In this document: positions 52,341 through 56,562 of the stretch, in pieces | Layout of the letters: every line of letters starts with the position of its first letter | Numbering within the stretch: position 1 is the stretch's first letter | Source: Planktothrix rubescens CCAP 1459/22 | GTDB taxonomy: Bacteria; Cyanobacteriota; Cyanobacteriia; Cyanobacteriales; Microcoleaceae | DNA: 64,000 bases | Direction: 5' to 3' | NCBI GenBank assembly: GCA_904830895.1 | Contig: LR882958.1 | Coordinates: forward strand, 1,110,001-1,174,000 | Notes under the pieces: generated by a model | What the model was told of the DNA's origin: nothing | The model's input: only the letters and a program-made list of their open reading frames with translations | The model's database searches: none | Translations under genes and position numbers: made by a program

Positions 52341-52399
52341 GGGGAAATTTATTAACAGGAGATTAACTAATGACACGCTTATTACCAGGAGAAACAAAA

Positions 52400-55213
52400 A
52401 TGGGACTTTGGGATAAAGTCAAGAGAGGGTTTGAATCTGTATTTCTTCCTCAGAAATACATCGCTGATACCCAAGAAAGAAATACAAAAAAAATAGTAGC
52501 CAACAATGCTGAAATGGAGGAAAAACGACAACAAATTCAATTAGCACAGTATAAATTACAATGTGTACAAGTAGCGAATAGTGCTATAATAGAGGAAAAA
52601 AGACAGGAAATTCAATTAGAACAAATTAAATTACAATATATCGAAAATGAAAAAAATCGAGAATTTCAAAAAGAACTACAAGAATATATCCAAAGCGTTA
52701 ATTTAGCAATTCACAAAAGCAATATTGAGTTTCAACGTTGGCGTTTTGAACAGGAAAAAACCCTACAATCAGAATTAGCAACTTATGGCCGAGAAACTCA
52801 ATTAATGGTGGCTGAATATCAACGAGAAACCGCGATAAAAGCTGCCCATAACCAAGCAGAAGTTCAGAAAATTTTTGCTAATTGGCCGTTAACATTGCCT
52901 CCGGCGCAAATTTTAGAATCCTACAATAATAGTTTAATTCCCATGCGAGTTTTTATCGCCCCCCCTAAAGTTCAGTTTGAACGTTTTGCCACCACGCCAC
53001 AAAATTTCCCCGATATTGAATTAACTATCAATCAAAAAATGCGCGATTTTTTTGATCAGTATTCTCAACAGGGAAGACCCATCGAATTTTTAGCAGGCGC
53101 TTGGGAAAGTAAACGTTTTCATAGCGAAGCCAGTATTAAAGCATTATTCGGGATGCTAAAATCAGAACCGACATTAATATTAGAGTCGGAATTTGATGGA
53201 GATTATATCAATTTCCGAGTCGCCTATTGGACAATAGGACAACCTAACTATTCCTATCAAACCATTATTTCTCAACTGTCCTATCGGGATATTTTATATG
53301 ATTCTGCTAAAACTCGCGCCCGGAAATGGAAAGTTACAAAAGACAAACTATTAGCACTGGGAAAAACCCAAGCTGATATTGATAAACGCGGCGGGGATAA
53401 TGAAATTAATCTCAAAATTTGGGAAGAAGAACAAAGTTTACGAGAGGAGGGAATAGACGATGATGAGTTAGAAATTCACTATAAAATTAATAGCAAGCAT
53501 TTTGAAGATTTGTACCAATTTTTAATTACCTGTCATTGTTTGGTTGCAGGTTGGATAGCTGACACTCATCATTTATTTCTCCATGATTTCACGCCTTTAT
53601 TACCGCAATTACTCCCAGATTTAACTCAGAATATCCCAGAAGGAGAAGTTGCAGATTCAGTAATATGGATGGTCATTTCTGGCTATGAACAAATCTACAA
53701 AATCCTAGAAGCAGAAAGTTCTCACCGTCTCCCTGAATTAATCCTAGAATTAGCCCAGGGTTTAGTCAATTTACCCAATAAATCTTGGGCTAAAAATCAA
53801 TTAATTAATTCTGTAGAATCTTGGTTGAAGTTAAGAAACCCCAGAAACCCGGTTTCTGAATTATGGGATACCGTTAATTCCGTGGTCATGGCTAAGGATT
53901 TAGACTATATTGAAAAAATCAATAATTTGTTAGAATCCTTGGGAGAAACTCACCGGGTTAATATTGTTCAAGCTTGTTATCAACGGGGACAAAACCATTG
54001 TCAACAGGGAGAATATACTACCGCCATTGATGACTTTACCCAAGTCTTGTTACTCGAACCTAATTCCCCCGATGCCAATTATAATCGCGGATTAGCCTAT
54101 AGTAAATTAGGGGAATATTCCGCCGCTATTGAGGATTATAACCAAACCTTGCGACTGAATCCTAATTATGTCGGAGCTTACAATAATCGCGCTAATGCTT
54201 ATTATAAATTAGGGCAATATGAAAAAGCGATCGCCGATTACAATTCCTGTCTCGCCCTTAATCCTAATTTACCCGATGTTGCCCATAATCGGGATGTTGC
54301 TCAAGGAGTTTGGGATGAAAAACGCCGTCAGGGACAAACGGAAGTAGAAACAAAACGCCGTCAGGAGGAAGAAATAAAACGTCAGGAAGAAGCAGAAAAA
54401 CGCCGTCAGCAAAAGGAATTTGAGTTTGATGTGATTACCGTTAACGCCCAAGGAAAGGAAACCAAACGAGAACGCCGTCAGGCTGAATTTTTTAAAGAAG
54501 ATTTAGGCAATAATATCAGTTTAGAAATGGTATCCATTCCTGGGGGAACTTTTATGATGGGTGCAGTCCAAAATGAAGCAAATGCGAGTAGCGACGAATA
54601 TCCCCAACATCCCGTTAATATTGCTGCATTTTCTATGGCAAAATATCCCATTACTCAAGCTCAATGGGAAGCTATTATGGGAAATAATCCTTCTAATTTT
54701 AAAGGCGCAAACCGACCCGTTGAGAATGTAAATTGGCATCAAGCGCAGGAATTTTGTCAGCGACTTTCCCAAGAAACAGGTAAAACCTATCGTTTACCTT
54801 CTGAAGCGGAATGGGAATACGCCTGTCGCGCTAAAACTACAACTCCTTTCCATTTTGGTGAAACCATTACAGCCGATTTAGCTAATTATGAATGTAATCG
54901 TAATCAAACCACCGATGTCGGTAGTTTCCCTCCAAATGCCTTTGGATTATACGATATGCACGGCAACGTTTGGGAATGGTGCGCTGACCCTTGGCATGAA
55001 AATTATACTGGTGCGCCAGATAATGGAAGTGTTTGGGAGTCGGGCGGAAATACTCAATTAAGGTGTGTGCGGGGCGGTTCGTGGATCTACTATCCTGATG
55101 GCTGCCGTTCTGCTGTTCGTGACTCCGGACACCCCGACCTCTTCAACTACGGCAGCGGCTTTCGGGTTTGTTGGGTTGTTGGTGCGTCCCTGGTTAGTGT
55201 GCAGGACTTTTAG
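52400..55213 (+). CDS. Coiled-coil/TPR/FGE-sulfatase-domain protein, probable DGR variable protein
   Basis: From MGLWDKVKRGFESVFLPQKY the protein has long coiled coils (residues to about 170), a middle helical domain, three TPR units (about 535-645; DFTQVLLLEPNSPDANYNRG), a charged helix, and a formylglycine-generating-enzyme-like domain (MVSIPGGTFMMGAVQ, YRLPSEAEWEYACRA, GLYDMHGNVWEWCAD) with a C-type-lectin-like fold. The last part RGGSWIYYPDGCRSAVRDSG to GSGFRV is the surface that diversity-generating retroelements mutate in such proteins; its codons fit derivation from AAC/AAT. Start is chosen at 52400 (AGGAG 9 bp upstream); ATG 52370 is possible. Likely a diversified ligand-binding protein. 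No catalytic Cys pair is evident. Confidence 0.85.
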   Translation: MGLWDKVKRGFESVFLPQKYIADTQERNTKKIVANNAEMEEKRQQIQLAQYKLQCVQVANSAIIEEKRQEIQLEQIKLQYIENEKNREFQKELQEYIQSVNLAIHKSNIEFQRWRFEQEKTLQSELATYGRETQLMVAEYQRETAIKAAHNQAEVQKIFANWPLTLPPAQILESYNNSLIPMRVFIAPPKVQFERFATTPQNFPDIELTINQKMRDFFDQYSQQGRPIEFLAGAWESKRFHSEASIKALFGMLKSEPTLILESEFDGDYINFRVAYWTIGQPNYSYQTIISQLSYRDILYDSAKTRARKWKVTKDKLLALGKTQADIDKRGGDNEINLKIWEEEQSLREEGIDDDELEIHYKINSKHFEDLYQFLITCHCLVAGWIADTHHLFLHDFTPLLPQLLPDLTQNIPEGEVADSVIWMVISGYEQIYKILEAESSHRLPELILELAQGLVNLPNKSWAKNQLINSVESWLKLRNPRNPVSELWDTVNSVVMAKDLDYIEKINNLLESLGETHRVNIVQACYQRGQNHCQQGEYTTAIDDFTQVLLLEPNSPDANYNRGLAYSKLGEYSAAIEDYNQTLRLNPNYVGAYNNRANAYYKLGQYEKAIADYNSCLALNPNLPDVAHNRDVAQGVWDEKRRQGQTEVETKRRQEEEIKRQEEAEKRRQQKEFEFDVITVNAQGKETKRERRQAEFFKEDLGNNISLEMVSIPGGTFMMGAVQNEANASSDEYPQHPVNIAAFSMAKYPITQAQWEAIMGNNPSNFKGANRPVENVNWHQAQEFCQRLSQETGKTYRLPSEAEWEYACRAKTTTPFHFGETITADLANYECNRNQTTDVGSFPPNAFGLYDMHGNVWEWCADPWHENYTGAPDNGSVWESGGNTQLRCVRGGSWIYYPDGCRSAVRDSGHPDLFNYGSGFRVCWVVGASLVSVQDF
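55065..55185 (+). other. Candidate DGR variable region (VR)
   Basis: The stretch encodes GGSWIYYPDGCRSAVRDSGH, then PDLFNYGSGFRV. Codons at variable positions are ATC, TAC, TAT, GAT, GGC, GTT, GAC, TCC, CAC, CTC, TTC, AAC, TAC, GGC and AGC. Almost all are NNC or NNT, the outcome of adenine-targeted mutation of AAC/AAT in a template repeat. Base composition is much more GC-rich than the rest of the gene. A CGCGC-GTCA-GCGCG hairpin lies about 90-110 bp downstream (55276-55289). Confidence 0.7.
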
Positions 55214-55321
55214 CCCTGTTTTCTTTAGCCCTTTAGCCCTTTACCCTTCTTTCTTCTTTTCCCTTCTTCCCTTTTCGCGCGTCAGCGCGTTTAAAAATTT
55301 TTTTTTCAGGGGGAGCCCCTT

Positions 55322-55420
55322 GTTCCCTGGTTCTACCAGGGAATGCTATCTTAGAGGCTCCGCCTCCGTTGAACAGCAGGCGGAGCCTGCCAGAAAGCAT
55401 TGCGAGGTAGAACCTCGCAA
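55322..55420. repeat. Cluster of three dispersed hairpin repeats
   Basis: Three stems follow each other: TTCCCTGG/CCAGGGAA, AGGCTCCGCCT/AGGCGGAGCCT and GCGAGGT/ACCTCGC. Such hairpins are frequent between genes in filamentous cyanobacteria. Confidence 0.75.
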
Positions 55421-55425
55421 CGAGG

Positions 55426-55461
55426 AAAGATGACTGAAGAAACCCGATTTCTGAACACCTA
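55426..55461 (+). repeat. 36-bp direct repeat, left copy
   Basis: The sequence starting AAAGATGACTGAAGAAACCC recurs at 56609-56644 with one difference. The two copies flank the Uma2-hicA-hicB block. Confidence 0.85.
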
Positions 55462-55506
55462 TAAGTATTCCGAGACTTCTACCTTATGATTATAGGAAAT
55501 TAAACT

Positions 55507-56155: not shown

Positions 56156-56350
56156 ATGAAAGTTCGTGAGGTACTAAAGCGATTAGAAGTAGATGGATGG
56201 TATGAAGCAAGAATGCGAGGAAGTCATCGAGTCCTAAAACATCCTGAAAAATCTGGTATTGTTGTTGTACCGGGTAATTTTTCTGATGAAGTTGCCATTG
56301 GAACCCTCAAAAGTATCTGGAAACAAGCACAATTAGAGGATAAACCATGA
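56156..56350 (+). CDS. hicA: HicA-type mRNA interferase toxin
   Basis: The 64-residue protein has the double-stranded-RNA-binding-like fold of HicA: MKVREVLKRLEVDGWYE, GSHRVLKHPE with the catalytic His in GSHR, and a C-terminal helix AIGTLKSIWKQAQLE. HicA cleaves mRNA when released from HicB. The stop overlaps the HicB start by four bases (ATGA). Confidence 0.9.
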   Translation: MKVREVLKRLEVDGWYEARMRGSHRVLKHPEKSGIVVVPGNFSDEVAIGTLKSIWKQAQLEDKP

Positions 56351-56562
56351 AAGAATATATTGTCATTTTTGAATGGGCTGGGAGTAACTATTCTGCTTAT
56401 GTTCCCGACTTACCCGGTTGTATTTCTACAGGAAAAACCTTAGAAGAAACTGAAAATAATATTAAAGAAGCGATTGAACTGTATATTGACACTCTGCGGG
56501 AAGATGGTCAAGCTATTCCCGAACCTTCTCTAACCGTTAAGACAATTTCTGTTGCTGCTTAA
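56347..56562 (+). CDS. hicB: HicB-type antitoxin
   Basis: The 71-residue protein shows the HicB degenerate RNase H fold: FEWAGSNYSAYVPDLPGCISTGKTLEE, then NIKEAIELYIDTLREDG. It lacks the extra C-terminal DNA-binding domain of longer HicB proteins, so autoregulation may differ. Translationally coupled to hicA. Confidence 0.9.
   Translation: MKEYIVIFEWAGSNYSAYVPDLPGCISTGKTLEETENNIKEAIELYIDTLREDGQAIPEPSLTVKTISVAA

Follow-up and report, generated by a model that had tools for sequence, protein, structure and literature searches.

The window analyzed here is a stretch of 64,000 nucleotides (G000:C1:1110001-1174000) from a genome of 5.7 Mb that is assembled in 5 contigs and listed as 100% complete. 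The target gene of a diversity-generating retroelement (DGR) lies on its forward strand at 52370..55213 (ORF call; Pfam) and encodes a protein of 947 amino acids, in which an N-terminal part that has no Pfam match is followed by TPR repeats and then, at the C-terminus, by an FGE-type domain. This FGE-sulfatase (C-type-lectin-like) domain spans residues 719-934 (54524..55171, forward strand) and was identified by PF03781, with an E-value of 8.5e-53, and by matches to PDB structures, which together support a lectin-like scaffold for the predicted protein. The protein matches by sequence the structure of a DGR variable protein from Treponema denticola (PDB 2y3c; E-value of 6.8e-25). Pfam also returned a beta-flower match, below threshold, upstream of the gene. 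Two small genes at 56158-56500 of the window, located 3′ of the gene next after the target, look to us like a HicA/HicB pair, and the first of the two is missing from the alignment with G003.

The variable region (VR, 55069-55203) forms the 3′ end of the TPR/FGE gene and consists of a type-B variable core of 88 nt (55069..55156, forward strand) and a constant 3′ segment of 47 nt (55157..55203, forward strand), the latter occupying the position that the IMH has in other DGRs. In the 120-nt step from 55070, 82.5% of the codons are of the form NNC or NNT and 10% of the bases are A. The GC content of the core is 0.61, compared with a window mean of 0.41, and among all 88-nt stretches of the window, 0.24% are equally GC-rich and 0.77% equally A-poor. 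These values bear out an earlier, sequence-only reading of the window, which had noted a GC-rich, A-poor segment at 55065..55185 and had taken it for the variable region at the C-terminus of an FGE/TPR protein; the coordinates fit and are refined by the core and constant segment given above, and the TPR repeats, the PF03781 match, and the template match in G059 described below agree with the assignment. It had also derived the NNC/NNT codons from AAC and AAT, of which the G059 template contains 8 and 2, respectively, and had seen no reverse transcriptase (RT) or Avd in the window, within which no RVT_1 or bAvd match of the genome falls.

Adenine-specific variation against a template repeat in a sister strain

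In G059, which is listed as the same species as the window genome G000, an RT of the DGR type, avd, and a template repeat (TR) were found together with a VR, all within 1.9 kb (DGR-B). The RT carries the motifs GLPIGNLTSQ and YVDD, the frames of RT and Avd are open, and Avd scores above its curated cut-off. The type-B target gene beside DGR-B (locus G059:C1:3435000-3454900) has its N-terminal and VR parts in different frames, which may be either a real break or an assembly error; because this adjoining target is out of frame, a working DGR-B in G059 is only putative, unless the assembly is at fault.

When we aligned the TR with four VRs, three from G000 and one from G059, every A column of the TR core was variable (26/26), compared with 5 of the 62 non-A columns, and these five all lie within 11 nt. 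All 26 adenines of the TR core occupy the first or second position of their codons. Between the window VR and the TR there are 20 differences over the 88 core positions, and 16 of these fall on the 26 adenines (hypergeometric p of 1e-7), with the remaining four confined to one 12-nt block. Differences at A account for 13/13 in the G059 VR, 14/15 in the second G000 VR, and 15/20 in the third. Three control stretches outside the VRs have no A bias (12/52, 0/5, and 2/7 differences at A). In the gene common to G000 and G059, the core differs at 22 of 88 positions, 17 of them in A columns, whereas the 400 positions directly upstream hold 5 differences. The expectation of the sequence-only reading that strain differences would be confined to adenine positions thus holds for the most part in the three G000 VRs, though not without exception, and on this comparative evidence 55069-55203 is confirmed as a DGR variable region.

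The exceptions are themselves patterned. Five non-A columns vary, four of which differ in the window VR, and therefore the G059 TR is not the exact parent template. Most of these exceptions are common to the window VR and the third VR, which suggests that the parent was a template slightly different from the G059 TR and now missing. Across the 47 nt of the constant segment, the window VR is identical to the G059 TR, the second VR has 6 differences, and the third has 2.

DGR components in the window genome

A DNA search of G000 with the window VR identified a second VR gene at C1:4026012-4026311 (86% identity) and a third at C1:3367540-3367736 (85% identity), and all three VRs have a common scaffold. 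The second encodes a protein of 659 amino acids with kinase-like and FGE-type matches, both below curated cut-offs; the third lies in an FGE frame of 594 amino acids that follows genes matching iSTAND, AAA, and VWA_CoxE (G000:C1:3359000-3376000). The other matches were a 46-bp VR fragment at C1:5183431, one piece of the third gene, and six matches with E-values above 1. Fragments of a VR 3′ end plus flank that lack an FGE gene around them occur at G000:C1:5183431-5183476 (46 bp), G059:C1:4338104-4338149 (46 bp), and G005:C3:21018-21091 (74 bp); the last was considered as a template and rejected, because it is only a short piece of a VR and lies in no FGE ORF.

No TR was found in the five G000 contigs by BLAST with the window VR at E-values up to 10, and the same DNA query retrieves the TR in G059 at an E-value of 5e-43. 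No DGR-type RT was found among the 16 RVT_1 matches of G000, all of which lack the GxxxSQ motif before YxDD; they sit in frames of 514-697 amino acids and are probably group II intron RTs. When the RT of a second DGR type (DGR-A, from G003) was used as the query, the best G000 match had 26% identity and was to a long RT frame. PF22296 was used as the Avd marker, PF05635 having been dropped after one weak match. A complete avd was not found in G000, for which the bAvd profile gives one copy covering model positions 3-54 of 107 and 1-55 of 104. A search of a plasmid collection gave only partial VR matches, covering at most 52% of the query.

Several RTs of other genomes were rejected as DGR candidates: a 372-residue RT of G005 (C4:18186) carries LPQGAPTSP, which we take to be a retron-like motif, and the RTs on G001:C43, G003:C4, and G003:C17 are without a DGR-type motif.

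The sequence-only reading had proposed a remote target diversified in trans, with a TR and a DGR RT to be sought in the full genome. A fitting RT and TR do exist at another locus, in G059, and neither was found in the G000 assembly; the DGR origin nevertheless stands by the deletion scar described below. As far as these sequences indicate, a remote target in trans is a description that fits the past of the window VR and not the present assembly.

A truncated avd at the DGR-B locus

In G000, the third VR lies at the locus orthologous to that of DGR-B in G059. The alignment of the two genomes there enters avd, breaks, and resumes about 1.6 kb further on along the G059 side, with flanks of 92% and 97% identity. 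The approximately 1.6 kb missing in G000 comprises the 3′ half of avd, the RT, and the TR, and the G000 avd keeps 55 of 104 model positions before running into other codons. Because half of avd remains at the same place, the alignment argues for a deletion in G000 rather than an insertion in G059. The three G000 VRs are apparently stranded and no longer rewritten, a freezing that we infer from the absence of the parts in the assembly. On this reading of the alignment, DGR-B seems to have been lost from G000 with its targets kept, and the sister strain G059 to have retained the machinery.

A type-B variable region in a gene with type-A orthologues

The G003 relative lies beside an RT with the motifs GLPIGNLTSQ and YVDD, after which comes the template of DGR-A, and all 12 core differences between its VR and this TR are at template adenines. 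Colinear counterparts of the window gene are the DGR-A targets in G003 and in G001 and one gene each in G008 and G059. All four of these colinear orthologues have a type-A VR, a type also found in a G007 gene of lesser colinearity, and the core differences of the four from the G003 template are largely at A (12/12 in G003, 14/15 in G001, 15/17 in G008, and 17/21 in G059). Among the genomes compared, G000 is the only one in which this gene has a type-B VR. The DGR-A template of G001 (G001:C36 near 7588) lacks 4 nt internally relative to the G003 template, although the two RTs are 97% identical, and retrohoming from the shorter template would shift the frame of the target. An ungapped count of the G001 against the G003 template (7/21 at A and thus no A bias, with a weaker A bias against the VRs) was discarded as not meaningful given this internal shortfall of 4 nt.

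The type-B tract within the window gene covers about 159 bp (55064..55222, forward strand), as delimited by the outermost departures from the G059 orthologue. Positions 55059-55060 also differ from that orthologue, and 3′ of 55210 only 55218, 55220, and 55222 differ. The likeness of the tract to the TR fades near 55210, and 55220 and 55222 agree with the other two type-B genes of G000. From these few positions there is a thin case that the tract outruns the template and was therefore donated by another type-B gene. Compared with the other two G000 VRs, the window VR has 20 and 23 differences over the 88 core positions, 18 of them at A columns in each case; either it was rewritten where it stands or its donor has been lost.

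In G003 and G001, the orthologue of the window gene is separated from the next gene by the avd, RT, and TR of DGR-A. The corresponding site in the window (55313..55492, no strand assigned; blastn blocks) measures 180 bp, and of the G003 interval only short repeats and the initial 103 bp of gene flank remain in the window. G059 is also without the DGR-A cassette, but of the G003 interval ahead of avd it has kept 459 bp (90%). Judged by these alignments, the window gene is one that has changed DGR family, approximately 159 bp of foreign VR having replaced type A by retrohoming or by recombination.

DGR components in related genomes

A protein search of named genomes, from which the best 80 of 266 matches were kept, placed Planktothrix among the best relatives. 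With the G003 DGR-A RT as the query and E-values up to 1e-20, matches were found in 3 of the 10 genus genomes (G003 at 100% identity, G001 at 97%, and G059 at 73%), and no DGR RT was found in G000 and the six others. Avd scored above the bAvd cut-off in 4 of the 10, namely G059, G001, G003, and G008. G008, a draft of 160 contigs, combines a type-A VR with a complete avd, and the search found no DGR RT in it. G007, a draft of 180 contigs, has two type-B VRs and an avd remnant with a breakpoint different from that in G000, and again no DGR RT. Targets kept without their RT thus seem to recur in the genus, with the two further cases coming from these fragmented drafts. G005 has only a VR fragment, and in G002, G004, and G006 neither a VR match nor a DGR RT was found.

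DGR RTs up to 72% identical to the G059 RT occur on cyanobacterial plasmids. FGE genes are numerous in the compared genomes, and they recombine. Tandem arrays of FGE genes with VR-like ends are present at G017:C1:1004000-1023000 and G022:C1:4649000-4668000, and in the latter array several of the genes are nearly identical.

Discussion

We consider it very probable that a single history explains these observations jointly: the window VR was written by DGR-B at another locus, DGR-B was later deleted, and the window gene had formerly belonged to DGR-A. The RT would have copied the TR RNA of DGR-B, putting random bases opposite or in place of its adenines, and the VR would then have been replaced by the resulting cDNA (mutagenic retrohoming); the VR pattern is there in the alignments, and the biochemical steps we infer from DGRs already known. 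A deletion would then have removed DGR-B from G000, leaving the truncated avd and stranding the window VR and the two other G000 VRs, which would still be read as protein but apparently not rewritten. At an earlier time the window gene would have served DGR-A, whose cassette is missing from the locus, and its type-A VR would have been replaced by the type-B tract.

That the adenine pattern has nothing to do with a DGR, and reflects ordinary divergence or recombination among FGE paralogues, might be argued from the many recombining FGE genes and from the block of five non-A columns that differs; we regard it as extremely improbable, with all 26 A columns variable against 5 of 62 others, controls without A bias, 22 of 88 differences in the core against 5 of 400 upstream in the shared gene, and a TR that adjoins a DGR RT and Avd. 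A VR that is still active, diversified in trans by a DGR elsewhere in G000 or on an unassembled plasmid, has more in its favor and is nonetheless unlikely. Trans diversification of remote targets is described in two published studies (PMC10907252, PMC7517822), related RTs are known from cyanobacterial plasmids, and the constant segment of the window VR is unchanged (0/47). Against this stand the lack of a TR at E-values up to 10, the 16 RVT_1 frames without the GxxxSQ motif, a best match of 26% identity to the DGR RT query, the truncated avd, and a genome given as 100% complete.

The direction of the DGR-B event could also be reversed, with G059 having gained DGR-B by insertion and G000, which never had it, having received its VRs from elsewhere. 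The plasmid RTs suggest mobility and DGR RTs were found in just 3 of 10 genus genomes, but G000 still has the front half of avd at the corresponding position, which fits a deletion, and three VRs of the matching type are present in that genome, so we hold an insertion to be very unlikely. As to how type B arose in the window gene, a type-B template retrohoming directly into the type-A VR, in place of recombination with another type-B gene, is possible but somewhat doubtful. It would draw on the 5′ scaffold common to types A and B and on a constant segment that matches the TR fully in the window VR but carries differences in the second and third (0, 6, and 2 of 47); type-A genes, however, have no type-B constant segment, and the tract appears to extend beyond the point near 55210 where the likeness to the TR ends, although three positions are thin evidence.

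Returning to the reading in which DGR-B wrote the VR and was then deleted, a broader picture can be offered tentatively, as one we think could be true but would not expect to be. VR cassettes may be exchangeable modules, so that a gene that had lost its type-A DGR came under a second DGR with another template (type B) by taking up a foreign VR with its constant segment, and was rewritten by that DGR and then fixed by the deletion of DGR-B; Planktothrix DGRs would on this account be transient writers, repeatedly dropped, with targets kept and re-assigned.

The target probably serves as a sensor or adaptor linked to TPR repeats, and diversification of its lectin-like face would have allowed it to bind ligands that change. 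A ligand-binding role is ascribed to the diversified face because it has been published for such proteins, and a ligand-sensing role of the window protein would go with it. Published proposals for function include the tuning of signalling (PMC7517822) and a role in sensing antigens within MoxR/vWA conflict systems (PMC10907252). The third VR locus of G000 fits the antigen-sensing proposal, as far as its gene content goes, while for the window gene there is, upstream of it, only the beta-flower match below threshold.

DGRs of cyanobacteria with C-type-lectin targets and remote targets have been described by Vallota-Eastman et al. 2020 (PMC7517822), and the system found here resembles them in having RT, Avd, and TR with FGE/CLec-type targets, including kinase-linked and remote ones. 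The remnant target without an RT nearby in that study is all3226 of Nostoc PCC 7120. The main text names Planktothrix 0 times, and PMC3610870, the sole paper found with both ‘Planktothrix’ and ‘diversity-generating retroelement’, concerns Nodularia. Target switching between two DGR types is not described in the titles and abstract openings found, nor in the full texts as far as they were covered.

In Thiohalocapsa PB-PSB1 (Dore et al. 2024, PMC10907252), there are likewise several DGR loci, some incomplete, with targets in trans, and disrupted loci with intact structural variants; the iSTAND, AAA, and VWA_CoxE neighborhood of the third VR of G000 resembles the MoxR/vWA conflict-system context there. 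Unlike that organism, which keeps working DGRs, G000 has no DGR RT or TR that we could find, and the passages covered of the study contain no target moving between DGR types. The T. denticola variable protein shares the FGE/CLec-type fold and C-terminal VR with the window protein, which differs in its large N-terminal part with TPR repeats and in the missing DGR of its own genome.

The mechanism and the family of DGRs are already known, and the interest here is the stranding, seen with a sister strain, and the change of VR type. The same-species pair offers one genome with the writer parts and another with a deletion scar and targets that match those parts. PMC7517822 suggests that the components for diversification may be discarded after a favorable variant has arisen, and this could be tested by comparing stranded with live VRs within this species. 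The window gene, in having switched VR type, suggests that a target can be handed from one DGR to another. Unlike the cases in the portions covered of that study, the loss is visible here between two genomes of the same species, with a truncated avd as its scar, and one target has changed its VR type.
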